Source: Arthrobacter sp. FW306-2-2C-D06B | Lineage (GTDB): Bacteria; Actinomycetota; Actinomycetes; Actinomycetales; Micrococcaceae | Length of the DNA: 64,000 nucleotides | NCBI RefSeq assembly: GCF_021789175.1 | Contig: NZ_CP084560.1 | Span: 1,116,001 to 1,180,000, forward strand | Direction of reading: 5' to 3' | Shown: positions 22,359 through 58,163 of the stretch, piece after piece | How the letters are laid out: each line of letters starts with the position of its first letter | Numbering within the stretch: the first letter of the stretch is position 1 | Program-made: the position numbers and the translations under genes | Notes under the pieces: model-generated | What the model was told of the DNA's origin: nothing | Databases searched by the model: none | What the model saw: the letters and a program-made list of their open reading frames with translations, nothing else

Positions 22359-22465
22359 TCTAAGTGTGGAGGTGGTCCCATCTACGTGCATTTTGGCCGG
22401 TTTTCGGGCCGATCTCAGTGTGAATTCCGCAAAAATCAGTGTGGCTCAGCATGCTTCTACGTGTT
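22359..22465 (+). promoter_or_regulatory. Motif array A: five 10-bp sites at helical spacing
   Basis: Sites start at 22359 (TCTAAGTGTG), 22381 (TCTACGTGCA), 22413 (TCTCAGTGTG), 22434 (AATCAGTGTG) and 22456 (TCTACGTGTT). Spacings are 22, 32, 21 and 22 bp, i.e. two or three helical turns. The motif strand is opposite to the leftward bacteriocin-like gene starting at 22248. A rightward membrane gene starts at 22645, so it could also be a target. Confidence 0.7.
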
Positions 22466-22644
22466 CGACTACGTTCTCCTTGGCAGCGAGGTCCGTCCAT
22501 GGATCGCGGGTAGGACTCCGAAGACTTCGACCGGATACGGTCAGGAGTCCCACCGCTGGCATTGCGTTCCTGAACCGAACCATGGAAGCAATAGACTTTG
22601 GGTAGTTGCGCCATTCTGAACGCTCGCGAGAGACGGAGGAAACG

Positions 22645-23031
22645 TTGAACAGAGCAGTAAACAGGGGATTATTGTTCGGGGCCGGGTTCGGATGCGCATA
22701 TGTGCTGGCGGTTCTTCTCTTGGACGGGCCTGGCGGCCCCGGATTGACGATACTCAGCGGGCTCGGCGGCGCGATGGTAGGTGCCGTGTCGGGTTGCATC
22801 AATGCCGCATTGACCTTTTGGGCGTGTCGCCTGACTAGAATTCGCCGTGATCTTGAAAATGCTACGGCCGCCGGTATCACCGCGGTTTCGACTTTGCTGA
22901 TCCTTATGGCCTTGGCTTCGGCATCCGATTCGAGGTGGCCGTGGTGGACGAATCTTGTTTCGGCGGTTGCGGCAGCTGCCATTGGCGGATTGGCGTGGCC
23001 TCGGACGAAAACTGTGATGCTCCGCGACTGA
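22645..23031 (+). CDS. Small integral membrane protein, unknown function
   Basis: I chose TTG 22645 because GGAGG lies five bases upstream; the frame is open from 22606. The 128-residue product has four hydrophobic helices (around 6-27, 33-55, 75-95, 103-120 of the chosen start), with a basic loop RLTRIRRDLE between the second and third. No family is recognised. It is divergent from the bacteriocin-like gene across array A and could be a transporter accessory or immunity protein, but nothing beyond position supports that. Confidence 0.55.
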   Translation: MNRAVNRGLLFGAGFGCAYVLAVLLLDGPGGPGLTILSGLGGAMVGAVSGCINAALTFWACRLTRIRRDLENATAAGITAVSTLLILMALASASDSRWPWWTNLVSAVAAAAIGGLAWPRTKTVMLRD

Positions 23032-23162
23032 ACCACGCAGTACCGGAACGCCACCGCTCCGGTGCCGGGCGGCGTCGTACATCTCAACCAGGGCGTTTAG
23101 AACGCCGGAGTTCGCGGACTGCCCCAACGTCTCTCCGCACACCATCGGGGAGGTTCGCTCTG

Positions 23163-23352
23163 ATGGCCGGACATTTTGAAGTGTTCACTGACAACGGCGG
23201 CAGCTGCAGGGTCAGGCTGGTTGACGAGTTCGGCAGGGTGCTCGCAGTGTCAGGCCCCTTCCATGACAAGGACGCCGCAGCCCGCGGGATCTACGCTTTC
23301 CGTGACAACGAACGCGAGCGGCCTCATCGAGGTCCACACGTCCACATTCTGA
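23163..23352 (+). pseudogene. YegP/DUF1508-like small protein, frameshifted copy
   Basis: ATG 23163 follows GGGGAGG and encodes MAGHFEVFTDNGGSCRVRLV, nearly identical to the intact gene at 32377. At about 23310 this copy has one extra base: TTCCGTGACAACGAACGC replaces TTCCGTGAGATCGCG. Restoring the frame gives ASGLIEVHTSTF and a stop at 23350-23352, matching the end of the intact paralogue. In the raw frame the product runs to 23537 with an unrelated tail. DUF1508 proteins are small beta-strand proteins of unclear function. Either the copy is dying or the base is a sequence error. Confidence 0.7.
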
Positions 23353-23364
23353 ACGGTTCCACGA

Positions 23365-24654
23365 TTACAGCGACGAGCCAACGCACTCGCGTTCCCCGGA
23401 TGGCGCCTGGCCGGCGTTCGCGCTTGTCCGCGAGGCTCGGCGCTGGCCGGCCGCCAGCACCCCGAGCGAAACGATGGTCAAAGACGCGATCGCCGCTCCG
23501 ACTGCCGGTGGCCCGGTTTCGCCTGCCGCGGAGCTGAGGGCCAGGCCCGCCGCCCACGAGCCGGCGGCAATGCCGAAGTTGAACGAGGCCGTGGTCAGCG
23601 CGGACGCAAGCGTCGGGGCCTTGCCAGCGAACTTGACCGCAAGCGCGAACGCCACGGGATTCACCACGAACCCGGCGAAGCCTGCCAGGGTGATCAGGAT
23701 GACGACAGGCAGGGCCTGCTCCGAAAACACGCACAATGCGAGAAGGAAGAGCGTGGCCGCGACGGCAGCTGTGATGGTGGTGGCGTACGGCCGGTGGTCT
23801 CCGAGCCTGCCTCCCGTGTAATTGCCGAGGAGCGCGCCCACGCCGAAGCAGCACAGCACCCACGGCAGCATCGCAGCCGGGACGCCGGCACGGTCCGTCA
23901 ACAGGGGCGCGATATAGCTGTACGTGGCCAGGACGCCTCCCATGATCAAGGCACAGGAGGCCAGGGCCAGCCCCAATCGTCCGGACCGGAGTGCCGCGAA
24001 CTCAGAGCTCAGGGACGGCGTCGCCCCGGCGGGCTCTTCGTGCGGGACGAAGCGGACGATAAACACCGCGGCGGCGGCCGCGAGGATGGCCAAGGCCCAG
24101 AAAGGAGCCCGCCAGCCGGCGATCTGCCCCGCGAACGCCCCGAGCGGGACGCCAACCACTGTCGCCAGGCTTCCTCCACCCATGACGACGCCGAGCGCGC
24201 GCGATCCGGCCGCGGGGCCTGCCGCTCGGGTCGCCACCACGACGGCGACGGACCAGAAGGCGCCTGTAGCACAGGCTGTGACAAACCGGGCCGCGAAGAT
24301 GACTTCGAAGCTCGGGCTAACGGCGACCAGGACATGACCGACCGCGAACAGCAGGAGCGAGAGCATCAGGGTGAGCCGACGCTGGAGGCGCAGGGTCAAG
24401 ATGATCATCGCCGGTGATCCGATGATCATCCCTACGGCGAAGATGGTGATGAGGAGGCCCGCGTGCGGAACGCTGACCCGGAGGTCGCTGGCGAGTTCGG
24501 GCAGCAGACCGGCTATGAAGAACTCGGTTGTCTGCATCAGGAATGTTCCGGCGGTGAGAACGAACACCACCGGTGGCAGTCCGCCGCGTGAATGTACGGC
24601 GCTTTTCAACCCGGCCGCTTTGAGATCCGTTGATGGCATGCTTTGAGGCACCAC
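23365..24654 (-). CDS. MFS drug-type exporter (DHA1 family)
   Basis: The 429-residue protein has twelve predicted transmembrane helices starting near residue 28, typical of the DHA1 drug:proton antiporters (Cmx/CmrA/AraJ-like). The first half reads MQTTEFFIAGLLPELASDL and the loop 2-3 region contains an Arg-rich segment (LRLQRRLTL). The track start is GTG 24654; ATG 24639 is an equally good alternative. The gene is divergent from an XRE regulator, so that regulator may control it. Substrate unknown: probably a small toxic molecule. Confidence 0.85.
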   Translation of the reverse strand: MVPQSMPSTDLKAAGLKSAVHSRGGLPPVVFVLTAGTFLMQTTEFFIAGLLPELASDLRVSVPHAGLLITIFAVGMIIGSPAMIILTLRLQRRLTLMLSLLLFAVGHVLVAVSPSFEVIFAARFVTACATGAFWSVAVVVATRAAGPAAGSRALGVVMGGGSLATVVGVPLGAFAGQIAGWRAPFWALAILAAAAAVFIVRFVPHEEPAGATPSLSSEFAALRSGRLGLALASCALIMGGVLATYSYIAPLLTDRAGVPAAMLPWVLCCFGVGALLGNYTGGRLGDHRPYATTITAAVAATLFLLALCVFSEQALPVVILITLAGFAGFVVNPVAFALAVKFAGKAPTLASALTTASFNFGIAAGSWAAGLALSSAAGETGPPAVGAAIASLTIVSLGVLAAGQRRASRTSANAGQAPSGERECVGSSL

Positions 24655-24833
24655 TTTCTAGGGGAACACAGAAGGCAACGCCCGAGGCGTGCTGGGGATG
24701 GGGGAGGGTCAAATTCACGGTATCGGAGTAGAAGCGAACACTGAGAGGCCCCCTTAGAACCCCTCACCCGGGTCCAAAAGGGGCCCCGGCAGGGCCTCCC
24801 ACTGTTGCCGGTCCACGCCCTACCGTGGAAGGT

Positions 24834-25772
24834 ATGAGTTCGAAAGATGAAGTGCGGGCGTTTCTGATGTCCCGCCGCGCCAACATCACGCCGTCCCAGA
24901 CCGATCTGCAGGATTTCGGCGGGCAGCGCCGCGTACCCGGCCTCCGACGCTCAGAAGTGGCCATGCTTGCAGGGGTTAGCCTCGACTACTACACCCGTCT
25001 TGAGAGGGGGAACCTCCGCGGGGTGTCAGAGCATGTACTGAACGCCCTCGCCAATGCCCTGCAGCTCAACGAGCTCGAACGGGAATATCTTTTCGGACTC
25101 GCCCGCACCGCTACGGCGCCCACCGCCGCCGCCCGGACAGTGCAGAAGAAGCCGGTAGTGCGCGAATCGGTGCAACGGGTTTTGGACAGCATGGGCGTTC
25201 CGGCCGTGGTGTGGAACCGTCAACATGACCTCGTCGCCTCCAACCTCATGGGGCGGGCGTTGTACTCGCCGCAGTTCGAATCCGACAGTCCCAACCTCGC
25301 GAGGTTTATCTTCCTGGACCCCCGGGCGAAAGACTATTACGTGGACTGGCCGCTGGCCAGGCAGATGACAGCAGCAATGCTCCGCATGGAAGCAGGACGC
25401 GATCCGCTGAACGCCGAGCTGACCGCCCTGATCGGGGAGCTCTCCACCCGCAGCCCGGAGTTCCGTTCGAACTGGGCTGAGCGAGACGTGCACGAGCACC
25501 GCACCGGCCGGAAGCTGTTCAAGCATCCGGTGGTGGGGGTTGTTGACGTTACATACGATGTGTTTGAGATGCCGGGGGAGAAGGGGCTATGGATCGGGAT
25601 CTATAGCGTCGAGGAGGATAGCGAATCCGCGGAGAAGTTCGCACTCCTCGCCAGCTGGGCCGCCACCAACGACCAGCTCGCCGCGCAAGGGCCCGCGCCG
25701 CCGTCGTCCGTTCATCCAGACCAGAACCAAACACTCACAGCTAAATCATCACGAAGCACTGGAGAGCAATGA
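24834..25772 (+). CDS. XRE-type transcriptional regulator with MmyB-like ligand-binding domain
   Basis: The 312-residue protein starts at ATG 24834; the frame extends to GTG 24825, but family members usually begin MSSKDEVRAFLMSRR. The helix-turn-helix is at about 35-75 (RRSEVAMLAGVSLDYYTRLE). The C-terminal half (WNRQHDLVASNLMGRALYS to HPVVGVVDVTYDVFEMPG) is the MmyB-like sensor region common in actinobacteria. Its stop overlaps the start of the next gene by 4 nt, so regulator and NAD-epimerase are coupled. It probably controls this pair and the divergent MFS gene. Confidence 0.85.
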   Translation: MSSKDEVRAFLMSRRANITPSQTDLQDFGGQRRVPGLRRSEVAMLAGVSLDYYTRLERGNLRGVSEHVLNALANALQLNELEREYLFGLARTATAPTAAARTVQKKPVVRESVQRVLDSMGVPAVVWNRQHDLVASNLMGRALYSPQFESDSPNLARFIFLDPRAKDYYVDWPLARQMTAAMLRMEAGRDPLNAELTALIGELSTRSPEFRSNWAERDVHEHRTGRKLFKHPVVGVVDVTYDVFEMPGEKGLWIGIYSVEEDSESAEKFALLASWAATNDQLAAQGPAPPSSVHPDQNQTLTAKSSRSTGEQ

Positions 25773-26755
25773 AGGTCATCGTCATCGGCGGCAGCGGTCA
25801 CATCGGATCTTTCCTCGTGCCCCGGCTGGTGCGCGCCGGCCATGAAGTCATCAACATCAGCCGTGGCACCCACAAAAGCTATGGCGACGCGCCCGAATGG
25901 CAGCAGGTGAGCCAGGTCATCGCCGACCGGCAGCAAGAGGACCGGGACGGCACTTTCGGTGACAGGGTCGCGGCGCGGCAGGCCGACGTCGTCGTCGATC
26001 TGGTCTGTTTCACGCTCGAATCGGCGAGCTTGCTCGTCAACCGGCTCCGCGGGGAGGCCGGGCACCTGCTGCACTGCGGCTCGGTGTGGCGGTACGGCCA
26101 GAGCCTCAAGCTGCCGATCGCTGAGGCGTCCGGATCGGCGGCAGCCCCGTTCGGCGAGTACGGCATCCAGAAGGACCGGATCGCGCGGATGCTGAAAGAG
26201 GAGACCGACGACGGCGGACTGGTCACCACGTCCGTGCACCCTGGCCATATCGTCGGGCCCGGTTGGCACCCGATCGGCCCGCTCGGGAACCTCGACCCCG
26301 CCGTCTGGTACACCCTCTCTGCCGGCCAGCCGCTGCAAGTCCCCGGAAGCGGCTCCGAACTGATGCACCACGTGCACGCGGACGACGTCGCCCAAGCGTT
26401 CGAGAAAGCCATCCAGAACCGCGACGCGGCAGCAGGCGAGGACTTCAACATCGTCGCCCCCACAGCGCTCACCGTCCGCGGATACGCCGACATCGCCGCC
26501 GGCTGGTTCGGCCAGTCAGCAACGTTGGAGACGGTCACGTGGGGACACCTCCGCGAATCGACCACACCGGAGTACGCCGAGTCGAGCTGGGGCCACCTCT
26601 ACCGCAGCCATTGCTTCACGACCGAGAAGGCCAAGTCCCTGTTGGGCTACGCTCCCCGGTACCAGCCCGAAGAAGCTGTGCTGGAATCCATCACCTGGCT
26701 GATCGAGCGCGGGCAGCTCCGCGTCGCAAATCCGCTAAGGGTCCTGGCGGGCTGA
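25769..26755 (+). CDS. NAD-dependent epimerase/dehydratase family protein
   Basis: The 328-residue protein starts at ATG 25769, inside the regulator's stop (ATGA). It has the Rossmann motif GGSGHIGS (7-14) and a Y131-x3-K135 pair (YGIQK), as in extended short-chain dehydrogenases. The C-terminal substrate-binding part (HHVHADDVAQAFEKAI, YRSHCFTTEKAKSLLGY) is complete. Acting on a nucleotide-sugar or similar substrate is expected for the family; the substrate cannot be read from the sequence. Coupling to the XRE gene is a frequent actinobacterial pairing. Confidence 0.85.
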   Translation: MKVIVIGGSGHIGSFLVPRLVRAGHEVINISRGTHKSYGDAPEWQQVSQVIADRQQEDRDGTFGDRVAARQADVVVDLVCFTLESASLLVNRLRGEAGHLLHCGSVWRYGQSLKLPIAEASGSAAAPFGEYGIQKDRIARMLKEETDDGGLVTTSVHPGHIVGPGWHPIGPLGNLDPAVWYTLSAGQPLQVPGSGSELMHHVHADDVAQAFEKAIQNRDAAAGEDFNIVAPTALTVRGYADIAAGWFGQSATLETVTWGHLRESTTPEYAESSWGHLYRSHCFTTEKAKSLLGYAPRYQPEEAVLESITWLIERGQLRVANPLRVLAG

Positions 26756-26878
26756 TCGTTCACGTGGACAGCGCCGGATGTGTCTGGCGGTCGTGGGACA
26801 TGAGCACCTTAACGACTCCGCGCACCTTAACAGATGCGTTTCAGGTCAAACATCGCCCGTCGCCCGACTGAACTAACA

Positions 26879-26920
26879 TGCCTACTTCTTCCGTGTCGGG
26901 AGCAAGGAACTCCTGGTTCG
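26879..26920. repeat. Degenerate copy of the 3' end of the small membrane gene at 21271
   Basis: TGCCTACTTCTTCCGTGTCGG and the following bases match 21268-21310 over about 42 bp with a few differences and one gap. On the minus strand both encode a PGVP segment near the end of the protein. It is probably the leftover of a duplicated bacteriocin-immunity-like gene. Confidence 0.6.
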
Positions 26921-26983
26921 TTGCTCGGTGGTGTAGCGGTAGAAGGGTAGGCCTCACTTTGACCACCCCTCAAATAGGCGCGA

Positions 26984-27247
26984 CTACGATCTTCTGTACT
27001 GCGTTCCGAGCCCCCGGTGCCGTACTTGTGAGTAGACAATCCAACCGACTGAGCCTACAAACGGCAACACAAAGATCGCGACGGCAATGGCTACTTTGGC
27101 TAGAGCGGGGATCCACTTTGATGCCATAAGCGATGCAAGCGCGACGACTACCAACACCATATAGACGATGCCAAGAACGGGAGTAACCCAGGAGTCGACG
27201 TCTGGGTTAACCGGATCAGTTGGACCCAGCGCGACCGCCAAGTTCAT
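26984..27247 (-). CDS. Small membrane protein, PLDc_N-like
   Basis: The 87-residue product starts at ATG 27247 with AAAGG upstream. Two hydrophobic segments (about 20-42 and 50-75) contain VAIFVLPFVGSVGWIVYSQV, close to the two-helix PLDc_N domain (short membrane anchors seen before phospholipase-D and as stand-alone proteins). In bacteriocin loci PLDc_N-like proteins can act in immunity, but that is an inference. It lies downstream of a secreted bacteriocin-like gene and another small membrane protein on the same strand. Confidence 0.65.
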   Translation of the reverse strand: MNLAVALGPTDPVNPDVDSWVTPVLGIVYMVLVVVALASLMASKWIPALAKVAIAVAIFVLPFVGSVGWIVYSQVRHRGLGTQYRRS

Positions 27248-27440
27248 GTCTAGTGCCTTTCTTTAGAAGTTACAGTTGTTGATCTCGAGGCCCGCGGTTG
27301 TCGCTTGGATTCCAGCCCGGCTGGCCGGACAAACACGCCGCGAAACTTCTGGAAGAGAACCCCGCCCGAAGGCCGTGCGGACTCACCATGCCTAAGCGCG
27401 TAGCCAGCAAACGACTCTGGAGTTGCGCTAACCACACCCC

Positions 27441-27671
27441 CTAAAGAGCGCGGCCCTGACCGGCTTTTCTTAACCGGTAGCGATAAATCGCCGGGACCCC
27501 AAGAAAGATGTACCCAAACGCTATTGCTGGATATCCGGTCCACAACGGGCCAAGCAACTCGCGAACTGGGCTAATGAAAATCATGGCAACGCCCAGGAGG
27601 ATTATTGCGAGCGTCAGCCAGCCGCTCCAACCGTGAAGCATCACGTAGCGGGCTTGTTCTGCAGTGATCAT
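27441..27671 (-). CDS. Small membrane protein next to secreted precursor (possible immunity protein)
   Basis: ATG 27671 is preferred because GAGGAG lies seven bases upstream; the frame also has ATG 27686. The 76-residue product has two hydrophobic helices (about 16-35 and 43-62) and a basic end (YRYRLRKAGQGRAL). It begins 23 bp after the stop of the secreted precursor at 27695. The pairing mirrors 21517/21271: secreted Cys-containing protein, then a two-helix membrane protein of the same size. Sequence similarity between the two small proteins is not obvious. Immunity is inferred. Confidence 0.65.
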   Translation of the reverse strand: MITAEQARYVMLHGWSGWLTLAIILLGVAMIFISPVRELLGPLWTGYPAIAFGYIFLGVPAIYRYRLRKAGQGRAL

Positions 27672-27694
27672 TTCACAGCTCCTCATGCCACGTG

Positions 27695-28651
27695 CTACCT
27701 ACAATTGCTGCCATTGTAGATGACAGGGAATGACACCTGACCAGCAAACCGTGGCGTCCGGATGCCTACGCATTCGCCCTGGTTGTGAGCTTGCGACGCA
27801 GTAATCGTGACAGCCCCTCCAATGGCACCGCACAGCACGGCCATTCCCGGGGTCAGCAACCCGCACCCGATGGAGATGACTCCAGTTGCCTGCCATCCAT
27901 TGTCCGCGATGGTCTTGGTTTCGGATCTATTGAATTCCACTGTGCAAAACCAAGGGTCGCAGGCCGTCTGTGGGTCGGCAACCACGGGGAAGGTCGCTCC
28001 CTGCAAATTGACCTCCTGTCGGAGGATGTTCCCATTGACTGAGTATGACGTCGACAGATTCTTGTCAGTGGCATCAACAGCCCAGGCCGGGAGTATCGCG
28101 TTGACCAGTGTGCCGTCGACGGAATAGACCGCGACACCACCATTGCTTCGCGGCTCGAGGACGGCTGGGGCTCCGTTAACAAGGAATTCGTATTCGAAAC
28201 TGCTCTTATTGGCAGAGTTGATGATTGTGTATCCCGCGAGCCGACCGTTGATTGAACCTGCCGCGTAGTTGTAGTCCGAGGACTTCGACCCGAATACGGT
28301 CAGGGTCCCATTGCTGGCAGCGGCTTCCTGAACGGAATCATCGCGGAAGCGGATCTGGAGCGTGGCACCTGGCAGATCGACTTCCGTTCCTCGATCGACG
28401 AGACGAATTGAGCGCCCGAGAGTCGACTGTGAATCGACCTTGCGCTCCCCATCGACAGATGACCGAGCCGCCGCCCTGGCGCTTGAGTCTTGGTGTGCGA
28501 TTTCGGAATGCTCGACGGCTCGTTCCAGTGCACTGAGCGCTCGCGCCGATTGATCCGAAGGCAGCTCGGCCGCCGCGGAAGGAAGAGCGGACACCAAAAG
28601 CCCTGCAGCTACAAGCATTGCGGTCGATAACACTTTTCCTCTGAACTTCAT
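27695..28651 (-). CDS. Secreted precursor protein with Cys/Gly-rich C-terminal segment (bacteriocin-like)
   Basis: ATG 28651 is chosen because GGGGGA precedes it and a classic signal peptide follows (MKFRGKVLSTAMLVAAGLLV, then SALPSAAA). The 318-residue product has a ~200-residue pro-region rich in Ser, Asp and small residues, with a two-Cys motif CDPWFCTVEF. A hydrophobic Gly-rich segment follows (GVISIGCGLLTPGMAVLCGA), and the chain ends YNGSNCR. The layout parallels the bacteriocin-like protein at 21517, which also ends in CR. Array B lies 216 bp upstream. Function is inferred; it could also be a secreted structural or toxin-like protein. Confidence 0.55.
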   Translation of the reverse strand: MKFRGKVLSTAMLVAAGLLVSALPSAAAELPSDQSARALSALERAVEHSEIAHQDSSARAAARSSVDGERKVDSQSTLGRSIRLVDRGTEVDLPGATLQIRFRDDSVQEAAASNGTLTVFGSKSSDYNYAAGSINGRLAGYTIINSANKSSFEYEFLVNGAPAVLEPRSNGGVAVYSVDGTLVNAILPAWAVDATDKNLSTSYSVNGNILRQEVNLQGATFPVVADPQTACDPWFCTVEFNRSETKTIADNGWQATGVISIGCGLLTPGMAVLCGAIGGAVTITASQAHNQGECVGIRTPRFAGQVSFPVIYNGSNCR

Positions 28652-28866
28652 TTCGTTCCCCCAGATGGTTCGAATTGATTCATTTCTTTGGATAGGGCAG
28701 TCGTTCACCTTCCACCGGTAAGCCTCGGGTGTTCTTGCCCATGACCCGAAAGCCATATCCGTCAGAGAGGGTGATGCATCTGACCCAATTTGGTTAGGAA
28801 AGTTCGGTCAGCCGTTGAGCTGCTGACGGCTCCGTCCTGAGAGAAAGATAAACCTGCGAAACCCCG

Positions 28867-28961
28867 TCTCCGTGTGGATTGGTTGAATCTCCGTGCGTTT
28901 TGAGCGAATCTCCGTGTGAAAATCGCAAAATTCAGTGGAGACGAGCGGGCGTCTACGTGTT
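28867..28961 (+). promoter_or_regulatory. Motif array B: five 10-bp sites at 21-22 bp spacing
   Basis: Sites start at 28867 (TCTCCGTGTG), 28888 (TCTCCGTGCG), 28909 (TCTCCGTGTG), 28930 (ATTCAGTGGA) and 28952 (TCTACGTGTT), spaced 21, 21, 21 and 22 bp. The array lies between the stop of a leftward gene (28992) and the start of the leftward secreted precursor (28651), so the precursor is the only evident target. Confidence 0.75.
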
Positions 28962-28991
28962 TGATATCCCCGCCAGAGACGCAAGCCGCGC

Positions 28992-29315
28992 CTAGTCGTC
29001 AGACTCCGGCAGTTCCCGCGTCCCGGATCCGGGTTCCTTCCTCGGGGAGTCGCCATCCGGGCCGAGCTCATCGGAGTAGGGGGCGTGCCCTTGCGGGAAT
29101 TTGTTGATGAGTTCGTTGGCGGCCATGGCCAGGAGGTCACGTTGTAAGACGGGCAGGGAGAGGAGGCCTTGGAGATAGGCTTCCACCTCGTATTCGCCAA
29201 CTTCGCCGCCTAGGCTGAAGTACTTGAGCCAGAGTTCGCCGACGTTGATTTGTGCTGACTTCATGGCAGCGGCCAGCATGCGCTGCTGTTGTGGTTCGTG
29301 CGGATCGAAGCCCAC
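28992..29315 (-). CDS. Conserved hypothetical small acidic protein
   Basis: The 107-residue product starts at ATG 29315, 9 bp after the stop of the GAF-ANTAR gene on the same strand, so it is probably co-transcribed with it. The central part (NVGELWLKYFSLGGEVGEYE, LLSLPVLQRDLLAMAANELI) is predicted helical, followed by a disordered acidic tail. No known domain or membrane segment is recognised. Such small helical proteins beside ANTAR regulators are common in Arthrobacter relatives, in my recollection; function unknown. Confidence 0.65.
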   Translation of the reverse strand: MGFDPHEPQQQRMLAAAMKSAQINVGELWLKYFSLGGEVGEYEVEAYLQGLLSLPVLQRDLLAMAANELINKFPQGHAPYSDELGPDGDSPRKEPGSGTRELPESDD

Positions 29316-29324
29316 GGGCCGGCC

Positions 29325-30008: not shown

Positions 30009-30161
30009 GGTCGACAGTTCGTCCAGCGGTAGTTTTCCGCGCCATGGTCCTCATTCATCTAGGTCGAGTGCATCGAGCCGCAGCGTTCCTGTGAAAGAGA
30101 ATCCAGCACGGCAGTTGGTGCGCTGTTCCTAGCTTAGTCCGCACCATTCCCCACGCTTTGG

Positions 30162-32565: not shown

Positions 32566-32602
32566 GCTCTTGTCCTTGCTGGTGGCATCGCCACTGCGGC
32601 AG

Positions 32603-49624: not shown

Positions 49625-49640
49625 GCTTCGGATCTCAAAA

Positions 49641-49673: not shown

Positions 49674-49737
49674 TGTGCCCATTTCCGGGTTGAGTGACTA
49701 CTTCGCGACAGGCAAATTGCCCGGGGATGCGCTCGGC

Positions 49738-49771
49738 CCCTGCCGACACCTGGATCCAGGTGTCGGCAGGG
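49738..49771. repeat. Perfect 34-bp palindrome
   Basis: The arms are CCCTGCCGACACCTGGA and its exact complement, with no loop. It sits in the convergent gap between the cold-shock gene and the leftward excalibur gene, 98 bp after the cold-shock terminator's T-run begins. It could be a protein-binding site or an IS-type scar. Confidence 0.75.
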
Positions 49772-49858
49772 ATTTGGCGTGTCGTCCAGCTTTTGCTGTA
49801 GCGCTCGGCCCTGGGTTTGGTCATGTCCCTCCATGGACCGTCTTCGCCCGGAGGTGTG

Positions 49859-49951
49859 GGATTCTGCTCAATCACTCGAATGGACAAATTGCCGGGCCCG
49901 CAAAATCACGGGACCGGCAACTTCGGCGAAGAGAGTGATCCAGCAGAATCC
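49859..49951. repeat. Long nested hairpin (19-bp outer, 12-bp inner stem)
   Basis: The outer arms start GGATTCTGCT at 49859 and pair with 49933-49951 over 19 bp with two mismatches. The inner arms TTGCCGGGCCCG and CGGGACCGGCAA pair with one mismatch. It lies 32 bp beyond the stop of the leftward gene at 49983 and may terminate it, although it has no T-run. A small mobile element is an alternative. Confidence 0.65.
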
Positions 49952-49982
49952 GACTGTGTCCCTAGGTTGTCCTGGGTAACCC

Positions 49983-50684: not shown

Positions 50685-51291
50685 TTATTGCCCCCAATGA
50701 TTCAGTTTTCGACGTGAATGTCAGCAGATCCTAGCATCTGAAATGCGAGAAAAGAAGAAGTTGTCCACATGGACGAGGAAGCCTCTTGACTGCGACCTCA
50801 TGAGCGCGACGCAAAATCGAGATTAGAAAATATGTTCGATCATGAAAAAGAAGATTCGAATAAATATCCACATGCGCGAGGTTCGGTCTAGAGGCGGCCA
50901 CGAAACCCCCGTAGCGTCGAAAGCAACAGACCACCACCAGGAGAGCCATGGAGAAACCATTGCCAAACCCGAGATCCTTGGACGCCGGGGAAACACTGAG
51001 TTTTCGCTTGCGCACACGGAGATGCGGAACAAAACCCCACGTCGGCACACGTAGACGCCTCCTCGCGCACACTGAGTTTCGCCAAAACCACACGTAGATG
51101 GAGGTTTCGGACTTTACGGTTTCCCTTGGAACGAGGTTCGTCAGCGCACCCGGGGGGATTCCGCGGGAGTACTTGGGAGTCCGCCTGCCAACGCCCGGCT
51201 TTGGGCAGGAGACAGTTGAATCGTCTGGACCTCGCACCACTTAGGGCCCGGAGAGTGCTGAATCAGCGCATCAGAGAAAGTTGGATCGCGA
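50685..51291. other. Long intergenic region holding motif array C
   Basis: This 607-bp gap separates the leftward lipoprotein from the rightward LAL regulator. It contains array C (50992-51098). Frames on either strand look like shadows. The promoters of both genes must lie here. Confidence 0.6.
50992..51098 (-). promoter_or_regulatory. Motif array C: five 10-bp sites on the minus strand
   Basis: Read on the minus strand, sites begin at 51098 (TCTACGTGTG), 51077 (ACTCAGTGTG), 51055 (TCTACGTGTG), 51022 (TCTCCGTGTG) and 51001 (ACTCAGTGTT). Spacings are 21, 22, 33 and 21 bp. A degenerate extra site lies near 51045. The nearest rightward gene is the LuxR regulator starting 194 bp further on; a leftward lipoprotein starts 308 bp away. 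Confidence 0.75.
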
Positions 51292-53874
51292 GTGTTCGAT
51301 CAGGAAGTTCGGCGAACGCTGGACTACGTTGCTCGCGGAATGATGGTTCGAATTGTCGGTGCACCTGGCAGCGGCCGCACGAGCGTCGCGCAAAAGGCTA
51401 TCGCCGATCTGGAAAACACCGGAGCAACGGTTTACTCCATTTCGGGACTCCGCTCACATCGCGGAATACCATTTGGTGGAATACATAGCCTGAGCCTGGA
51501 TATTCGAATAGGCCAATTGGGAGTTCTAGGTGTGGCTGACACCCTCGCAAGCCGACTCTCGAGGCCAGGTGAGCGCGTGCTCGTGGTCGATGACCTCGAG
51601 TTCGTCGACACGGAGACTGTAGCGGTTCTGGACGCCGTCCGGCGCCGGACGAAACGGCCCATGATCGTCACCATGAGCGAGTCTTCCATCTACTCGATGG
51701 CACAGCCTGCGGTGCTCAGCCCCGGCCCGGAAGCCAGGGTTCACCTGAATCCGCTTCGCTACGAGCAGGTGAACGAGCTCCTCACCGAGATTCTGGGAGC
51801 TCCTGCGGACGCCGACACCACTGCGCGGATCCTGACGAAATCGGCGGGGAACCCCCGGCTTGTGGTTCGCATCGCGGAGACTGCTTCCCTCGCTGGCTTG
51901 ATTGTCCTTCGACATCGTCAATGGCACATGACAGGCGACACCCTGTGGAACGAGCACCTTCACGGCACGGTGGAATCCCTCCTCGAAGGACTTGAACCCG
52001 ACGAACTCAATGGCCTTCAGGCCATGGCCATCGCCGGGACGACGCCCCTCGATGTACTGCAACAGGTAGTCCATTCCGACGTTCTCGACAGGCTCGAACA
52101 GCGCGGCCTCATTTCCGTCACGGAAGATCTCCACAACACCGTTTGTGCTTCGATCACCCCGCCGGTCCTGGCCGACTATTTCCGCGGTCAAAGGGTATTC
52201 ACAAGCAGGCGCGTCCTGAAGAGTCGAATAACACGAGCCCTCAGCGGTTTGCCGCAGGAGTCCCGCATCGACCTCAACTCAGCCGATTCGTTGATGAGGG
52301 TCCTGGCCGCGCTGCGCCTTGAACGGAGCTCCGACGATGCGGCCACGGCACGCCATTTTCACGAGCAGATCTCCGTCCTGGAGCGCCAGCGCTACGAGCT
52401 GTGGGATGGCGACCGATCGGTGTCGAATGCGGTCGCACTCCTGGGCGTCTACTGGGGCTCGCCCATTGACGCATCGAGAATCGAGCGCGTGATCGCGCAG
52501 ACGTTGACCTCCGAGGGAGAATCGTGCGATCTCCTGTTCCTGGCATTTACCAAAGCGCTTTGGGCGATCCATAAAGGCAAAGGACTGGATTCTGCAGCCG
52601 GCGCCCTCAGGAGCTTCGGGAAGGAACGTCCCAAATGGTCCGCCGAAGCCGAAGCGGCGGAGCTTTTCCTCGTGGCGTCCTATGACCGAATGCCGGAGAA
52701 TCTCGATGAAATCTTCGCTCGGCTGCACGATCGTCACCCGGAAAGCGGTGTCATATCCAGCATCCGAGGCATCCTGGAACTCTACCGATTCAACCCTTCC
52801 GCCGCGCTCAGAGCCATCGACACTTCAGGCGGCTTAAGAGGCATCCCGGGAATCGAACCGTTCATCCGTGGAATGGCCTTGTTCAGCTCGGGACGGATCG
52901 AGGAAGCAATTGTCTTTGCGCTTGACCAGCGCGCAGAAGCCCGCCGCAACCTGGACCAATTCGGGATGGTTTCCAACACGTACGTGGCTGCCCAAGCCCT
53001 GATCTACCGCGGCTTTTTCGACGACGCCGAATACCTCATGGGCAGTGTCTTTGCCATGGGGCGCCCAGGTTTCCTGGTGGCTTCCCTCCACGATGCCATG
53101 CTCAGGCTCGCCGGGCTAAGGACGGCGACGTCCGCGATCTTGCCTGCGGCGACCCTTGCCACCCAGGCGAGGCGCGAAGCTGAAGACATCGGTCCACTCC
53201 CCGGAACCGCGAGAGGCGTGTACGAACTCGTCGCCGCGCGTCCGCTCATCCCCGCTGTATTCGACGGGAAGGCCGCGAAACTCATTGAACGGCAGCTCGA
53301 ACGCGGCTATGTCCTCGAGGCGATCTATTCCGCACTGTTCTTCACGTGCCTGCTCCCGGGCCGAAAGGTTCTCGAACTCCTCCGGCAGACCCTGAAGGAG
53401 TATCCGTCCATTTCGCACGATCAGCTTTTGGCAATTGCCACGGCGGTGGTGGAGGACGACCACCAGATGCTCGGCGTGCTGCTCGAGCATTACGAGCCCG
53501 ACGTCGATTTCTACCAGGTACGGATGCTGCTCCGCGGTGCTTTCAAGCGGTATGCATTCGTGGACGACACCATCGGCGCGGCAGCGATGGACCGGGCGTA
53601 CTCCGTGTTCGCGACACGATTTCCCTCGGAGGATGAACCCGTCGCGTTTAGTTCCGGAAGCTACTCGCCCCTGACGGTCCGGGAAATTGAGATAGCAGCC
53701 CTGGCCGGTCATCGCTCCAATCCCGAGATCGCCGAGCATCTGGGAATAAGTATCCGGACCGTTGAAAGCCACATCTCCAACGCGCTGCGCAAGACAGGAA
53801 GCCCCTCTCGCACGGCCCTCTTTGACTTAGTCCGGGATTCGTCTCCGTTCCGCGAGAAGCGGCTTTCCGAGTGA
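51292..53874 (+). CDS. LAL-type LuxR transcriptional regulator
   Basis: The 860-residue protein starts at GTG 51292; no strong ribosome binding site is seen. The N-terminal AAA/NTPase has Walker A GAPGSGRTS (23-31) and Walker B RVLVVDDLE (D100). A long helical middle follows. The C-terminus has a LuxR helix-turn-helix from about 794: LTVREIEIAALAGHRSNPEI with EHLGISIRTVESHISNALRK. LAL proteins are large ATP-dependent activators of antibiotic or sugar clusters. Array C lies upstream. It is convergent with the bacteriocin ABC ATPase gene with a 19-bp gap, so it is a natural candidate regulator of that cluster. Confidence 0.88.
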   Translation: MFDQEVRRTLDYVARGMMVRIVGAPGSGRTSVAQKAIADLENTGATVYSISGLRSHRGIPFGGIHSLSLDIRIGQLGVLGVADTLASRLSRPGERVLVVDDLEFVDTETVAVLDAVRRRTKRPMIVTMSESSIYSMAQPAVLSPGPEARVHLNPLRYEQVNELLTEILGAPADADTTARILTKSAGNPRLVVRIAETASLAGLIVLRHRQWHMTGDTLWNEHLHGTVESLLEGLEPDELNGLQAMAIAGTTPLDVLQQVVHSDVLDRLEQRGLISVTEDLHNTVCASITPPVLADYFRGQRVFTSRRVLKSRITRALSGLPQESRIDLNSADSLMRVLAALRLERSSDDAATARHFHEQISVLERQRYELWDGDRSVSNAVALLGVYWGSPIDASRIERVIAQTLTSEGESCDLLFLAFTKALWAIHKGKGLDSAAGALRSFGKERPKWSAEAEAAELFLVASYDRMPENLDEIFARLHDRHPESGVISSIRGILELYRFNPSAALRAIDTSGGLRGIPGIEPFIRGMALFSSGRIEEAIVFALDQRAEARRNLDQFGMVSNTYVAAQALIYRGFFDDAEYLMGSVFAMGRPGFLVASLHDAMLRLAGLRTATSAILPAATLATQARREAEDIGPLPGTARGVYELVAARPLIPAVFDGKAAKLIERQLERGYVLEAIYSALFFTCLLPGRKVLELLRQTLKEYPSISHDQLLAIATAVVEDDHQMLGVLLEHYEPDVDFYQVRMLLRGAFKRYAFVDDTIGAAAMDRAYSVFATRFPSEDEPVAFSSGSYSPLTVREIEIAALAGHRSNPEIAEHLGISIRTVESHISNALRKTGSPSRTALFDLVRDSSPFREKRLSE

Positions 53875-53893
53875 GCCGCGCCTGGGCTTCGGT

Positions 53894-54538
53894 CTACAAC
53901 GTTCCTCCTTCCTGTTTGAAGACGAAGGAATGTCTGATGGCCAGTTGCTCCGGAACCGTGTGCGAGATGAGGACAACTACCTTGTGCTGTGCCCACTCGC
54001 CGAGTTCGTCGATGAGGGCCTCGATCCCTCGAACGTCCATACCGTTGAAGGGCTCATCGATGGCGACTACAGGGGTTTCGGCGACAGTGCACATGAGCAG
54101 CCAGAGCTTCCGGATATTGCCCGTCGAAAGCATGGAGATGGGCTGTTCCGCCCAGTCCTCCAGTCCGTACCGGGCCAGTCGGGCGAGCCCGGCCTCCGGG
54201 CCAACCTGACGGCTACGGGCCGCAAGAGCCAGATGGTCGTGAACGGTCATGGACGGGTAGAGCGCCGGTGTCGTACGGCAGACGCTGCGCACGTGGCGCG
54301 CGTCGGGAGAGCCGGCGTCGATTCCGCAAAGGCGGACGCTTCCGGTCCATGGTTCGAGGAAGCCGCTGATGAGCTCCAGGAGAGTCGATTTCCCGCTGCC
54401 ATTGCTGCCGGCCACCCGGTAGAGCCCCGGCTCGTTCATGCTGAGACTGATTCCTTCCAGGACGGGTGAGCCTTGCCGGTAGCCGGCGGTTACAGAATCA
54501 ATTTCGAGCGAAGCCTCAAAAGTCGTTGGTGTAGGCAT
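53894..54538 (-). CDS. ABC transporter ATPase of the circular bacteriocin cluster
   Basis: The 214-residue protein starts at ATG 54538, after GGGAG. It has Walker A GSNGSGKST (44-52) and Walker B VVAIDEPFNGMD (D161, E162). The signature is LSTGN (137-141) rather than LSGGQ, an unusual form. It overlaps the upstream permease gene by 49 nt. In circular bacteriocin clusters such as AS-48 an ATPase of this type works with membrane partners in export and self-protection. It ends convergent with the LAL regulator. Confidence 0.8.
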   Translation of the reverse strand: MPTPTTFEASLEIDSVTAGYRQGSPVLEGISLSMNEPGLYRVAGSNGSGKSTLLELISGFLEPWTGSVRLCGIDAGSPDARHVRSVCRTTPALYPSMTVHDHLALAARSRQVGPEAGLARLARYGLEDWAEQPISMLSTGNIRKLWLLMCTVAETPVVAIDEPFNGMDVRGIEALIDELGEWAQHKVVVLISHTVPEQLAIRHSFVFKQEGGTL

Positions 54539-56019
54539 ACGGCGGCTCCCAGGATCAAAAGGATGGAATAGCCCGACAACAGCACGGTGCTGAACTCAGG
54601 ACTGACGACAAGAATGAGCGAGCAAGGAGAAATCAGGAGGAGTGTGAAAAGGCCGTCCATCACATCGTTGGATTTGGTGCCGTCCGTTGTGGTTGGCGGA
54701 CGGGAGAGCGATTCCGCGACGACTCCGGACGCTGCGACGATCAAGCCCGCGAGGACAGTACCGGGAGCCGTAATGTCCAGGGCGAGAACCGCCCCTAGGA
54801 AAACAAATCCACCGATGGCGGCCCCCGCCATAACGTAAATCCCTACGAGCCGGACAACGATCGCGGCGGCGGAGAAGCCGTTCTCCCACGCAAAGCGGTA
54901 GTGGTACAGCTTCGCAGTGGGCCCGATCCGATAGAGCATCGGTTCCGTGACGCCCAAGCTCAAGAGCACGGCGACGCCGACCAAGGATTTGTGCATTTCC
55001 CCTATGCCGAGAGCCGAGTGCAGGGGGAGAGCGCCCCTCGCTCCCAGGAGAACGCCAACGACGGCGATCCAGGCGAGCACAATGGTGGTGATTACCGAGC
55101 CCTGTTTGCTGCTCAACAGATCAGTGACAACGAATTGCCCGAAGTTCGTCACGGCTCGTTGGCTGCCGCCCTGTCCGGTGCCGAGGGAAATCCTGCGGTA
55201 GCTCAGGCGGCGCCAAGCGCGGACGCCGAGGACGATCAATGTCCCGGAAGCGGCTGCCGCGAGCACGTACAACGCTGGAAGGAAGCGCGACGGGTCCTCG
55301 GCGAGTCCGTCGAGCCGGGAGAGCTGGGGCAGGAGAAAGCCAGTGGCACCTCCGAGCAACAACCCGAGGATGAGAGCCAAGAGGCAATACTGCCAATGGA
55401 GGCCTATTCGTCGTGCAGGAGTAGAAGCGAAATGGAGAACGCAGAAGGCGCACGCACAGGAGGCGAGAGCCAGAACGGAGACCGAAGCCACCACGACGTT
55501 GAGGTAGTTCGATGTTTCCTCGAAAAAGACCAAGAGGAATACCGCAGCCGAATACCAAAGTATTCCTGTCCGGCGGAGTGCCGGGATCAGACCGTATCTC
55601 ACCACAACCTGCGGGAGGGGAAGTTCCATCGTCCGGAAGAGCTCCAAATGCGGCGCGCCGGATACTGCCAGTCGTCGACCGGAAACTACCTCGGTGAGCA
55701 CTGTCGCCACAGCGGAGTAGAGGATTGCAAGGAATCCCCAATTAAGTACAGCGGAAGTGTCATGGCGGAGCGGGCCGTCGCGGAGAACAGACATCGTGGA
55801 CGCGAACGCCATAGTTCCAAGCAGGCCCAAGGCTATCGATCCGAAGATCACGAGGGCCCTGAAGCCATCCAGCGTGAGCGGCAAACGCATCGCGTTGACG
55901 ATTTCGAATGCCCGGAAGTCCCGCAGGATTCGGTAATCGGACTGCCTGACCGACGCGGCAGTGACTCCGGCGTTCGAGACCTGGCCCACGACGTCGGCGC
56001 GAGAGGCTTTGGTCCTCAT
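54490..56019 (-). CDS. Large membrane protein, probable ABC permease of the bacteriocin cluster
   Basis: The 509-residue protein starts at ATG 56019, 6 bp after the stop of the upstream gene. It has about twelve hydrophobic helices in two blocks. The soluble middle region (ISLGTGQGGSQRAVTNFGQF) resembles an intracellular loop. It has no nucleotide-binding domain, so it would use the ATPase encoded next. Export of the mature peptide or self-immunity is inferred from the cluster. Confidence 0.75.
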   Translation of the reverse strand: MRTKASRADVVGQVSNAGVTAASVRQSDYRILRDFRAFEIVNAMRLPLTLDGFRALVIFGSIALGLLGTMAFASTMSVLRDGPLRHDTSAVLNWGFLAILYSAVATVLTEVVSGRRLAVSGAPHLELFRTMELPLPQVVVRYGLIPALRRTGILWYSAAVFLLVFFEETSNYLNVVVASVSVLALASCACAFCVLHFASTPARRIGLHWQYCLLALILGLLLGGATGFLLPQLSRLDGLAEDPSRFLPALYVLAAAASGTLIVLGVRAWRRLSYRRISLGTGQGGSQRAVTNFGQFVVTDLLSSKQGSVITTIVLAWIAVVGVLLGARGALPLHSALGIGEMHKSLVGVAVLLSLGVTEPMLYRIGPTAKLYHYRFAWENGFSAAAIVVRLVGIYVMAGAAIGGFVFLGAVLALDITAPGTVLAGLIVAASGVVAESLSRPPTTTDGTKSNDVMDGLFTLLLISPCSLILVVSPEFSTVLLSGYSILLILGAAVCLHQRLLRLRSKLIL

Positions 56020-56025
56020 CAGCGC

Positions 56026-56433
56026 CTAGAACTTGCTCCGCGGACTCTTCTTCTGGACTGAGTCCATGAAGGCCACAATGGTGAGGACCGCGAGTCCGAG
56101 CGCACAGACGGCGGCGAGGGCCGACGTCGTTCCCTGGAACGGGACAACTATCACCGGGCTGAGGACCGCTGCGTTGGCAAAACCGGCGACGGCGAAAACG
56201 GCCGCTTTGAGCGGTAGCCATTTCCCGGCCGGGCTGAAAGCCGCAATCAGGGGTGCTGCCACTCCGAAGACGAGAAGTACGGTGACCGTTGTGTTCTTCA
56301 GGACGAGCGGATCAATATTGTTGAGGCTTTCCGGCGCAGGAGAGGCCCAAATCAGGCCGAGGGAAATGCAGGAGAATGCAGCGACCAAGAGGCCCACGAT
56401 TCGTAGAAGAAGGCTGTAAAGCTGAGTAGTCAT
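56026..56433 (-). CDS. Small membrane protein of the bacteriocin cluster
   Basis: The 135-residue protein starts at ATG 56433. It has four hydrophobic helices (about 9-30, 48-66, 75-92, 100-122) and a basic end (VQKKSPRSKF). No family is recognised. Small, basic, multi-helix proteins of this kind serve as immunity factors in circular bacteriocin loci. Position in the leftward operon supports that role, but it is an inference. Confidence 0.7.
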   Translation of the reverse strand: MTTQLYSLLLRIVGLLVAAFSCISLGLIWASPAPESLNNIDPLVLKNTTVTVLLVFGVAAPLIAAFSPAGKWLPLKAAVFAVAGFANAAVLSPVIVVPFQGTTSALAAVCALGLAVLTIVAFMDSVQKKSPRSKF

Positions 56434-56469
56434 TGAGGTTTTCTGTCCGTGGGTGGTGGTTGGGGGAGG

Positions 56470-57081
56470 TCAGCCGATGGCAACTATTGTTGACAGAGCT
56501 ATGGCTGAAAGCACAACGAGGATCATCCTGCCTGTGGAAAACCCGCGCCAATGTCGGTAGAAGATCGCCAGGGCAAGAACAGCCATCGAGGGGAAATAGG
56601 CCCAATATCCGGGGACCTCCCGCGGTTGGATGACACCGAAAACCACGCTGAATAGATTCACCGGGATCGTGGCGAGAATGGCGATCACAAAGAAGGCCCC
56701 GATATTGAAGCGACCGGCGAGTACCGATTTTCCCGGGATCACGCGCTTGTCCAAGAAGGCGGCGAGGGAAAAGTACAAAGCGATGATTACCGCGTAGACA
56801 AGAAAGAACAAAACGGTGCCCACCGTCATGGAGAGATTCAGCAGGCGATCGTCCCCGATTTCCGACCGCACGTCCGCCGGAACGTTCGCGCTGAGATGCC
56901 TCCTGGTCAGGGGAAGCCGCAGAGCCACCAAAGCCATCAGCAGAATGTAGCCCGCGATCCACAGACCGCGGGACGTGGAGACCAATTCCCTGGCTGTTGC
57001 CGATGGCTCAGGCCGCAACTTTCCCACCTTCGCGACGCTGATCACGGTTTCGGACTCTCGGCCGTCTTCCGTGCTGGTCAT
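56470..57081 (-). CDS. Membrane protein of the bacteriocin cluster
   Basis: The 203-residue protein starts at ATG 57081, 10 bp after the stop of the SpoIIM-family gene. About 40 cytoplasmic residues precede five hydrophobic helices, including VGTVLFFLVYAVIIALYFSL and FPSMAVLALAIFYRHW. It resembles Yip1-like or small membrane proteins of bacteriocin operons without a clear family. It is likely to act in export, maturation or immunity. Confidence 0.7.
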   Translation of the reverse strand: MTSTEDGRESETVISVAKVGKLRPEPSATARELVSTSRGLWIAGYILLMALVALRLPLTRRHLSANVPADVRSEIGDDRLLNLSMTVGTVLFFLVYAVIIALYFSLAAFLDKRVIPGKSVLAGRFNIGAFFVIAILATIPVNLFSVVFGVIQPREVPGYWAYFPSMAVLALAIFYRHWRGFSTGRMILVVLSAIALSTIVAIG

Positions 57082-57091
57082 GAATTCCTCC

Positions 57092-57652
57092 TCAGGTCTT
57101 TAGCTGGATCACGATGGCCTCGATGGCGGCACCGAGGACTATCAGGGCGATGGCAATGAGCAAGGTGCCGAGGGAACGGGCCATGTCGTCGATGAACGAG
57201 CGCACAGTTGCGGGCTCGTTCTTCATCAGCAGCCTGCGGGCGAGGCCCGCGGCGGGCTGGAATCCGGCGGTCGCCGCCATCACCAGGCCGAAGAATTCGA
57301 ACGGGACATACCAAATCACGTCTGCAACCAGGCCGGTCCCGCCGACGGAATGCACCCCGAGGGATACCGTCGCTCCGACATACAGCGCCAGGATTCCGGC
57401 TCCGAGAAGCGTAGTCAGCCCAAGGGTCGCGACCCCGGAATAGAGCACCAAGGCCGCGCCGACGTTCCGTCCAAGGATCTGGAGGAAGTCTTTGCTGTAG
57501 AGGGGACTCCCACCCATATCCCTGGCGTCCCGGATCCAGGACAAGTCCACGGCCGAGTAGCCGAAGACGGCAATGGCTGCCATGGCCAGGCCCGTGCTTG
57601 GGAGCAACCATCCAGGGATGCTCCCAAGCACGCGTGCTGTCTTAGCAAGCAT
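57092..57652 (-). CDS. Stage II sporulation protein M family (DUF95) membrane protein
   Basis: The 186-residue protein starts at ATG 57652, 4 bp after the bacteriocin precursor stop. It has about five membrane helices and the DUF95 pattern (FLQILGRNVGAALVLYSGVA, LGLTTLLGAGILALYVGATV, WYVPFEFFGLVMAATAGFQ). DUF95/SpoIIM proteins are hallmark members of circular bacteriocin clusters (AS-48 C1, circularin A CirB type). They are needed for maturation or transport. This placement right after a circular precursor strongly supports the cluster call. Confidence 0.82.
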   Translation of the reverse strand: MLAKTARVLGSIPGWLLPSTGLAMAAIAVFGYSAVDLSWIRDARDMGGSPLYSKDFLQILGRNVGAALVLYSGVATLGLTTLLGAGILALYVGATVSLGVHSVGGTGLVADVIWYVPFEFFGLVMAATAGFQPAAGLARRLLMKNEPATVRSFIDDMARSLGTLLIAIALIVLGAAIEAIVIQLKT

Positions 57653-57656
57653 CGAT

Positions 57657-57923
57657 TTAGGCGACTGCTTGCGCCCGGCCGATGCGGAAGAGGATGCTTC
57701 GAGCCGTTGCGATCAAGGCACCAGTGATTCCTGCCCCGAAGATTGTGCCGATGACAACGAGGGCCCAGCCTCCGACCTCGATGGCGTGCATGATCTGGGA
57801 CGCCGCCGCGGCAGAGATGCCAAGGGACCCCGCGATCCATGAAACAGCCAAGCTCGCACCGAAGATGCCAACCACAGCCAGCGCAGCCGCGGCCGCAGCC
57901 TGAAGCCCGGTCCTTTTCGTCAT
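57657..57923 (-). CDS. Circular bacteriocin precursor (AS-48/uberolysin-like)
   Basis: I place the start at ATG 57923 (MTKRTGLQ), giving 88 residues; the frame is open to 58019. A ~29-residue hydrophobic leader is followed by a hydrophobic core from about I30/A31 to the C-terminus. The core aligns by eye with AS-48: GSLGISAAAASQIMHAIEVG with GWALVVIGTIFGAG, as in FGIPAAVAGTVLNVVEAGGW of AS-48. It ends RIGRAQAVA, a compact C-terminus suited to head-to-tail cyclisation. Cleavage site is inferred. DUF95 and membrane genes follow in an operon. Array D lies upstream. Confidence 0.8.
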   Translation of the reverse strand: MTKRTGLQAAAAAALAVVGIFGASLAVSWIAGSLGISAAAASQIMHAIEVGGWALVVIGTIFGAGITGALIATARSILFRIGRAQAVA

Positions 57924-58030
57924 TGTTGATTCCACTTCAACCCCATTTCTTGAGTAGAACGACCAGCGGTATCGCTGGCCTTGAATTGCGGTGCCCTCCC
58001 AAAAAGGAAGGCCATCCACGATTCAGATTC

Positions 58031-58163
58031 TCTCGGTGAAAATGGCGTCTACGTGTAGAAAAGGGAAAAATCAGTGTGCCAAAGGCCGTTTCTCAGTGTG
58101 AACAAGCCGGATCTCAGTGTGCGTGCGGGCCCGTCTACGTGTTTAAAGGCAAAAACACTGAGA
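58031..58163 (+). promoter_or_regulatory. Motif array D: sites at 21-22 bp spacing
   Basis: Sites start at 58048 (TCTACGTGTA), 58069 (AATCAGTGTG), 58091 (TCTCAGTGTG), 58112 (TCTCAGTGTG) and 58134 (TCTACGTGTT), spaced 21, 22, 21 and 22 bp. A weak TCTCGGTGAA starts at 58031, and an inverted TCTCAGTGTT occupies 58154-58163. The array lies between the UDP-glucose dehydrogenase stop (58198) and the bacteriocin start (57923), so the bacteriocin operon is the only evident target. Confidence 0.8.

Follow-up and report, generated by a model that had tools for sequence, protein, structure and literature searches.

Phased box arrays upstream of dispersed peptide genes in Arthrobacter are probably operators of a self-activating LAL regulator

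A 64,000-nucleotide stretch of the Arthrobacter sp. FW306-2-2C-D06B genome (positions 1116001-1180000 of a 4.56-Mb single contig; hereafter the window) carries four arrays of a ten-base box, A to D, situated upstream of genes for two cysteine-rich precursors, a putative circular bacteriocin and a regulator of the LAL (large ATPase-LuxR) type. The arrangement raises the question of which protein reads these boxes and to what effect. An earlier note on this DNA had proposed that the regulator controls all of these genes, including its own, and the comparative evidence supports such a single, self-including peptide regulon through ten arrays in the genome, the co-occurrence of arrays with the LAL, an array at every LAL promoter compared and boxes that track a residue of the LAL. 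The arrays are probably operators of the LAL encoded at 51292-53874, a self-activating regulator that would switch on a dispersed regulon of bacteriocins and ribosomally synthesized and post-translationally modified peptides (RiPPs), its operators having apparently changed with it.

Each array consists of five boxes. Array A (22359..22465, plus strand) has boxes at 22359, 22381, 22413, 22434 and 22456, with steps of 22/32/21/22 bp, and array B (28867..28961, plus strand) at 28867, 28888, 28909, 28930 and 28952, with steps of 21/21/21/22 bp. Array C (50992..51098, minus strand), upstream of the LAL gene, has boxes at 51089, 51068, 51046, 51013 and 50992, with steps of 21/22/33/21 bp, and array D (58048..58143, plus strand) at 58048, 58069, 58091, 58112 and 58134, with steps of 21/22/21/22 bp, accompanied by an extra box-like site at 58154-58163 on the other strand. 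A pattern search and a matrix-and-spacing scan both located the arrays where the earlier note had seen them, and the measured steps confirm its spacing of 21-22 bp with a single 32-33 bp step in A and C only, corresponding to about two or three helical turns. Its description of five copies of TCT[CA][AC]GTGTG per array holds for the number of boxes but not for the strict consensus, since the sequence is looser, with nine of the 20 window boxes matching exactly, six with one mismatch, four with two and one with four. The motif strand is opposite to the gene, as claimed, and the distance from array edge to start codon, given previously as 110-216 bp, was measured as 111 (A), 216 (B), 194 (C) and 125 bp (D).

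The chains of boxes score 75.2 (A), 67.9 (B), 79.6 (C) and 75.2 (D), whereas the highest score among 120 strands simulated with the dinucleotide frequencies of the window was 16.6. The scoring matrix was trained on A-D and three other arrays, so this window test is not blind, and a motif-free search, a backward pattern and simulated sequences served as controls. Upstream of the LAL, the motif-free search recovered array C with a score of 33.1, exceeding the null maximum of 20.6 from 60 shuffles. At a chain-score threshold of 14, the same matrix detected no further chain in the window and its flanking 18 and 19 kb, in agreement with the earlier statement that the window holds no comparable array elsewhere; a matrix derived from relatives added three window chains of 14.1-15.5, at chance level. 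A sequence-only array model, built from eight arrays of which six belong to the same genome, recognised A (E-value 2.6e-12) and C (7.5e-7, split in two pieces), both of which lie outside the model; B (2.1e-23) and D (4.9e-25) were also recognised but form part of it.

Genome-wide, the array model returned eleven rows representing ten arrays, as array C is split in two: A, B, C and D, with others near 1229, 1691, 3205, 3208, 3259 and 4031 kb, five of these non-window places having been shown earlier by a pair pattern and a three-box pattern. The ten arrays total 51 boxes, one array being six-boxed. According to our own gene calls, which were made from open frames and third-position G+C and are free of annotation, each of the ten lies in front of the LAL, of an ABC cluster for peptide export or of a gene for a peptide. 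The genome-wide scan that the earlier note had proposed as a check found a small set of arrays at the expected kinds of gene, rather than arrays abundant across the genome without relation to peptide genes.

The arrays also keep a fixed distance to a candidate promoter. Counted in gene orientation from the first base of the proximal box, TANNNT, the usual actinobacterial -10 element, starts at an offset of 25 in 22 and of 26 in 29 of the 66 non-identical arrays (51 together), compared with eight occurrences in total at every other offset of the stretch examined. Three of these eight (L086, L088 and L090; L-numbers denote loci and G-numbers genomes of the genus set, G000 being the genome of the window) are at 46-47, L086 being explained by a sixth, proximal box. 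Within G000, TANNNT is found at 25 or 26 bp in nine of the ten arrays: TATTTT in the array A promoter (22337..22342, minus strand), TATCTT in the array B promoter (28845..28850, minus strand) and TACGGT in the LAL promoter (51115..51120, plus strand) all lie 26 bp from the proximal box. Array D is the sole array of this genome without TANNNT there, presenting GAATCT at about the -10 place (58025..58030, minus strand), and circular-bacteriocin arrays of the same type likewise have GAATCT in its stead. Reckoned from such a -10, the proximal box extends from about -38 to -28, where a -35 element would lie. Because TANNNT follows it at 25-26 bp, the box occupies the -35 position, as it would with an activator.

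The LAL itself (51292..53874, plus strand) comprises 860 residues, fitting the 850-950 or so typical of LAL regulators, with a putative N-terminal AAA-type ATPase region and a C-terminal GerE/LuxR helix-turn-helix (HTH; residues 793-845), whose coding region at 53653..53841 (plus strand) includes the recognition helix RTVESHISNAL. The HTH matches PF00196 (GerE) at 2.3e-9 with 37.1 bits, above the cut-off of 23.5, and aligns with the HTH domains of solved response regulators, including EsrB. The N-terminus matches PF13191 (AAA_16) at 5e-4 with 21.0 bits, below the cut-off of 32.6. The Walker A motif reads GxPGSGKT in four orthologues of 52-55% identity and GAPGSGRT (residues ~22-31) in this LAL and that of G021; this change of Lys to Arg may alter ATP use.

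Examining the relatives shows that arrays follow this regulator. Among 206 genus genomes, 50 encode a LAL of at least 52% identity; G005, which has only 44% and 41% relatives, was placed in the group lacking it. Matches to the three-box pattern were found in 35 of the 50 LAL genomes and 13 of the 156 others (p = 3e-17), whereas the backward-pattern control matched in 5/50 and 24/156, respectively. Ten of the 13 LAL-less matches were inspected and resemble coding sequence or tandem repeats; G190, G195 and G211 fell outside this inspection. The array model produced no match at E 1 in eight LAL-less congeners, and its rows below E 0.04 numbered eleven in G107, whose LAL is 96% identical (two rows being parts of one array), and five in G021.

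An array stands at every LAL orthologue examined. Named LAL records came from Arthrobacter and Paenarthrobacter in 26 of 27 matches, the 27th being a Xanthomonas HTH that was dropped, and all 26 loci have an array directly upstream of the LAL. Across 39 distinct LAL sequences taken from 58 loci, an array lies within 320 bp upstream in 39, the weakest scoring 22.9 (L111) and 23.7 (L159), and in a motif-free search of six of these LAL promoters, four scored higher than any of 60 shuffles. G021 carries two arrays at the same genes, the LAL and the circular bacteriocin. LAL paralogues of 40-44% identity have no array by matrix and motif-free search, the latter covering four paralogues. A strict pair pattern of the G000 type, run against 59 relatives, matched G000 and a single place in G032 only, where the boxes TCAAGGTGTG are unlike the arrays. 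The link to the LAL at one point seemed broken, no boxes of this type being present upstream of the G021 LAL; a looser scan found arrays of changed sequence there.

These changed boxes are associated with one residue of the recognition helix. In RTVExHISNAL, the variable position just before the conserved His is Ser in the LAL of the window and Asn in G021 and more distant LALs; by alignment with solved response-regulator HTH domains it would correspond to Val189 of NarL, a base-contacting position. Helix residues were sought at 59 loci, of which L024, L093 and L150 gave none, L150 (with the same LAL as L093) being taken from an alignment. At the promoters of Ser LALs (11 of the 39), G occupies box positions 3-4 in 1/55 boxes, compared with 108/111 GTG-core boxes at those of Asn LALs (28 of the 39), a count that excludes 29 of their 140 boxes, which lack this core. 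Relatives at similar distances fall on either side: G084 and G085, with LALs 80-81% identical to that of the window, have Ser and G-poor LAL-promoter boxes, and in G021, G161 and G189 (81-83% identical) Asn goes with boxes that mostly bear G. The LAL of G021 is 81% identical to that of the window, and the G-bearing form occurs in this genome in 4/5 boxes of both the LAL and the circular-bacteriocin arrays; the HTH regions of these two LALs differ in three residues only.

A paralogue of 46-49% identity, LAL2 (nine, from eight genomes; L175-L183), coexists with the first LAL in eight genomes and has box sites of its own upstream. All seven LAL2 helices read carry Asn. Upstream lie one to four T[GA][AG]GTGK sites each, a pattern that itself presupposes purines, and a motif-free test beat the null in 4/9. 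LAL and LAL2 in the same cell possibly form two insulated circuits. We put forward, with somewhat more doubt than conviction, a history in which a change from Asn to Ser removed the preference for G at positions 3-4, some ten dispersed promoters (51 boxes) were rewritten to match, LAL2 with its Asn and G-bearing boxes stayed insulated in several relatives, and such arrays in genomes of the Paenarthrobacter type additionally drive a conserved structured RNA of ~120 nt beside the LAL gene, described below.

From these computed features we infer the following mechanism, including its activating rather than repressing sense. LAL protomers would bind the boxes along one face of the DNA and then oligomerise, with the protomer at the proximal box, over the -35 position and 25-26 bp upstream of the -10, recruiting RNA polymerase where a good -35 is missing. 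Along with the LAL gene, no fewer than nine scattered transcription units for peptides, bacteriocins or peptide exporters would be activated simultaneously, resulting in a self-amplifying antimicrobial response, all at once. The inducing signal would probably act via the ATPase and central region of the LAL.

Several observations weigh against this account. A three-box match is absent from 15 of the 50 LAL genomes, and among the 35 with one, the matches of G032 and G182 resemble coding sequence, those of G191, G198, G199, G200, G217, G222, G225 and G227 were counted without inspection, and orthologous arrays are non-independent trials. The motif-free search of the L051 and L052 LAL promoters failed to beat the null, and array D has no canonical -10. 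G at positions 3-4 is found in 3/51 boxes of G000, an array not at the LAL in the Ser genome G084 contains the box TTTAGGTGG, and one LAL2 array includes a CTCAGTGTG box. A single origin of Ser fits the tree (support 67/19; 75% of the bootstrap trees show one change), so the association of residue and box possibly reflects one evolutionary event. A box over the -35 could also serve repression, and another co-inherited regulator is still conceivable.

Such a regulator, encoded elsewhere and inherited together with the LAL, would bind the arrays and have the LAL as one target only. The array at the LAL promoter is what a mere target would show, and G000 has other LAL-like genes, with eight matches including the LAL of the window and the remaining ones distant. 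We nevertheless judge this explanation unlikely, as the distribution of arrays across the 206 genomes follows the LAL of the window type, a different recognition helix goes with different boxes, and distant LAL-like matches occur in 36/36 congeners searched, most of which are array-less. Less probable again is that the arrays are repressor operators through which the LAL silences the peptide genes and itself. Autoregulation is commonly negative, and a protein bound to the proximal box, which overlaps the -35, could block polymerase. However, further helically spaced boxes extend some 120 bp or more upstream, as at activator promoters, and the promoters share a common -10 with a box in the -35 place. 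MalT, a related regulator, activates, as does TpdR in what PMC6099782 describes of it.

An origin of the arrays as ends of transposable elements, of a multi-repeat IS21 or Tn7 type, is hardly credible. Repeats spaced 21-22 bp do occur at such ends, and the arrays at 3205 and 3208 kb are nearly identical and separated by 2.7 kb, but the arrays hold a fixed distance to the -10 and two of them stand at the same genes in G021. An istA/istB-like locus of G000 considered as an IS21 end has one isolated site with no chain above threshold, and its one-mismatch sites include no run of three at 21-22 bp.

With the LAL as the preferred reader of the arrays, the genes behind them can be described. Array A precedes a secreted-type precursor of 243 residues (21517..22248, minus strand) with a conserved C-terminal four-cysteine domain of ~55 residues; 13 relatives besides itself were found, none with a function name, and in an alignment of ten (nine relatives and the query) all four cysteines of the last 55 residues are invariant. 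Array B precedes a secreted-type Cys-rich precursor of 318 residues (27695..28651, minus strand). Pfam and NCBIfam scans gave no match for either precursor. The target of array D is a putative circular bacteriocin precursor of the uberolysin-like kind (57657..57923, minus strand), exceeding the cut-off for PF09221 (25.0 bits versus 23.6) and falling under that for TIGR03651 (22.3 versus 30.7). The rest of its operon (53894..57652, minus strand) encodes a SpoIIM-like protein (PF01944, 25.7 bits, slightly below the cut-off of 26.9), three more membrane-type proteins and an ABC ATPase (PF00005, 68.4 bits, over its cut-off), with an identical gene order in L049 of G021. An Rfam scan of the window yielded no match above the gathering score.

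Outside the window, the array near 1229 kb precedes genes for a 79-residue membrane-type peptide, an ABC ATPase and a permease-like protein, in this order, and that near 1691 kb one for an 84-residue membrane-type peptide. The arrays at 3205 kb (L014:5314-5409) and 3208 kb (L014:8035-8130), which have similar flanks, precede a small membrane-type protein and an ABC transporter, respectively, the ATPase gene of the latter (L014:7708-7911) appearing truncated. The array near 3259 kb leads an operon of an acyltransferase, a MacB/FtsX-type ABC transporter and a ThiF-family protein, and that near 4031 kb a secreted-type 160-residue protein, then a 579-residue protein and an ABC transporter. Only the target of array D has a bacteriocin family match; for the other peptides, size, signal or membrane segments and neighbouring genes suggest a bacteriocin identity, and the antimicrobial role of most targets is a prediction. 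A hydroxypyruvate-isomerase-like gene is found near both the L015 array (5574-5669) and the L089 array (6729-6825), with different following genes, which looks as if cargo had been swapped behind a retained promoter in two species.

Beyond the claims of the earlier note lie the constant distance to the -10, the altered boxes of relatives and two further kinds of target. In G008 (L088:4463-6822), an array lies directly upstream of genes for a daptide RiPP recognition protein and an aminotransferase, which match NF041823 (211.5 bits) and NF041821 (565.8 bits) above cut-off in an NCBIfam scan; TANNNT is absent at 25-26 of this array. An array in G021 (L089:7528-9951) stands before a similar daptide-type gene pair, assigned by its likeness to that of G008, the NCBIfam scan covering G008 only.

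Many Asn-type loci have a second array 1.5-3 kb past the LAL, aimed at a GC-rich RNA of ~120 nt in which an open frame is not evident (L051:12840-12956, minus strand; also L050, L052, L053, L101-L110 and L112-L116). Its consensus from 15 sequences contains 37 pairs, seven of them with two-sided changes in at least one sequence. Compared with the 6C RNA of Rfam it scores 25.9 bits, below the cut-off of 47; a model of the RNA matches in 4/59 relatives, all LAL-bearing, and a search with it found none in G000. The RNA might instead be the terminator of the adjoining transporter gene. The membrane-type gene at 56026-56433 in the circular bacteriocin operon resembles L051:13069-13488, beside the RNA-driving array of Asn-type loci, and this look-alike is perhaps a relic of the same circular bacteriocin cluster.

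Comparison with known systems places these arrays among direct-repeat operators. In streptococci, several bacteriocin loci of the Blp/Com type answer to a single regulatory system, as is proposed here, though the regulators, inducing peptides and operators are unrelated. The MalT regulator of the E. coli maltose promoters, the LAL prototype, differs in its catabolic targets and in the sequence and layout of its sites, the arrays described here usually having five phased boxes at a fixed distance to the -10, upstream of peptide genes. The MalT-like trait of several helically phased direct-repeat boxes upstream of a promoter is present here, and MalT (see also PMC6099782) shares the large ATPase-LuxR build, ten-base direct-repeat sites and, as proposed here, activator promoters. 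TpdR (PTTMP) of Rhodococcus jostii, an actinobacterial LAL activator, likewise has a repeat over the -35 (-51 to -37) and another at -79 to -65, but its sites are a pair of 15-base repeats at a distance of 28 bp, in a single catabolic promoter, and the portion of PMC6099782 consulted describes no dispersed regulon. The PimR-type SARP-LAL regulators of Streptomyces resemble the present case in helically spaced direct repeats, presumed cooperative binding and antibiotic targets; they recognise heptamers every 11 bp, in two or three copies at one target gene, and, as far as PMC5930380 describes them, bind DNA by a SARP domain and lack the LuxR-type HTH. The LAL of the window has a C-terminal HTH, and no SARP domain appears among the 12 Pfam families listed for it up to E 0.1.

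What sets this system apart from LAL- and MalT-type activation through direct repeats is the phasing of usually five boxes per array, the spread of the peptide regulon over the genome and the change in the operator. Titles and abstract openings of the papers listed gave no description of a peptide regulon under LAL arrays, daptide papers at keyword level made no mention of cluster regulation, and the accessible part of a paper on luxR in Arthrobacter UMCV2 mentioned neither repeats nor bacteriocins.

The arrays provide a sequence handle for antimicrobial-peptide clusters missed by family searches, A and B flagging two unmatched precursors. LALs that are about 81% identical and fall on either side of the Ser/Asn change offer a natural case for the joint change of a regulator and its sites. 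For Arthrobacter itself, the arrays suggest a single switch that may activate many silent peptide clusters.

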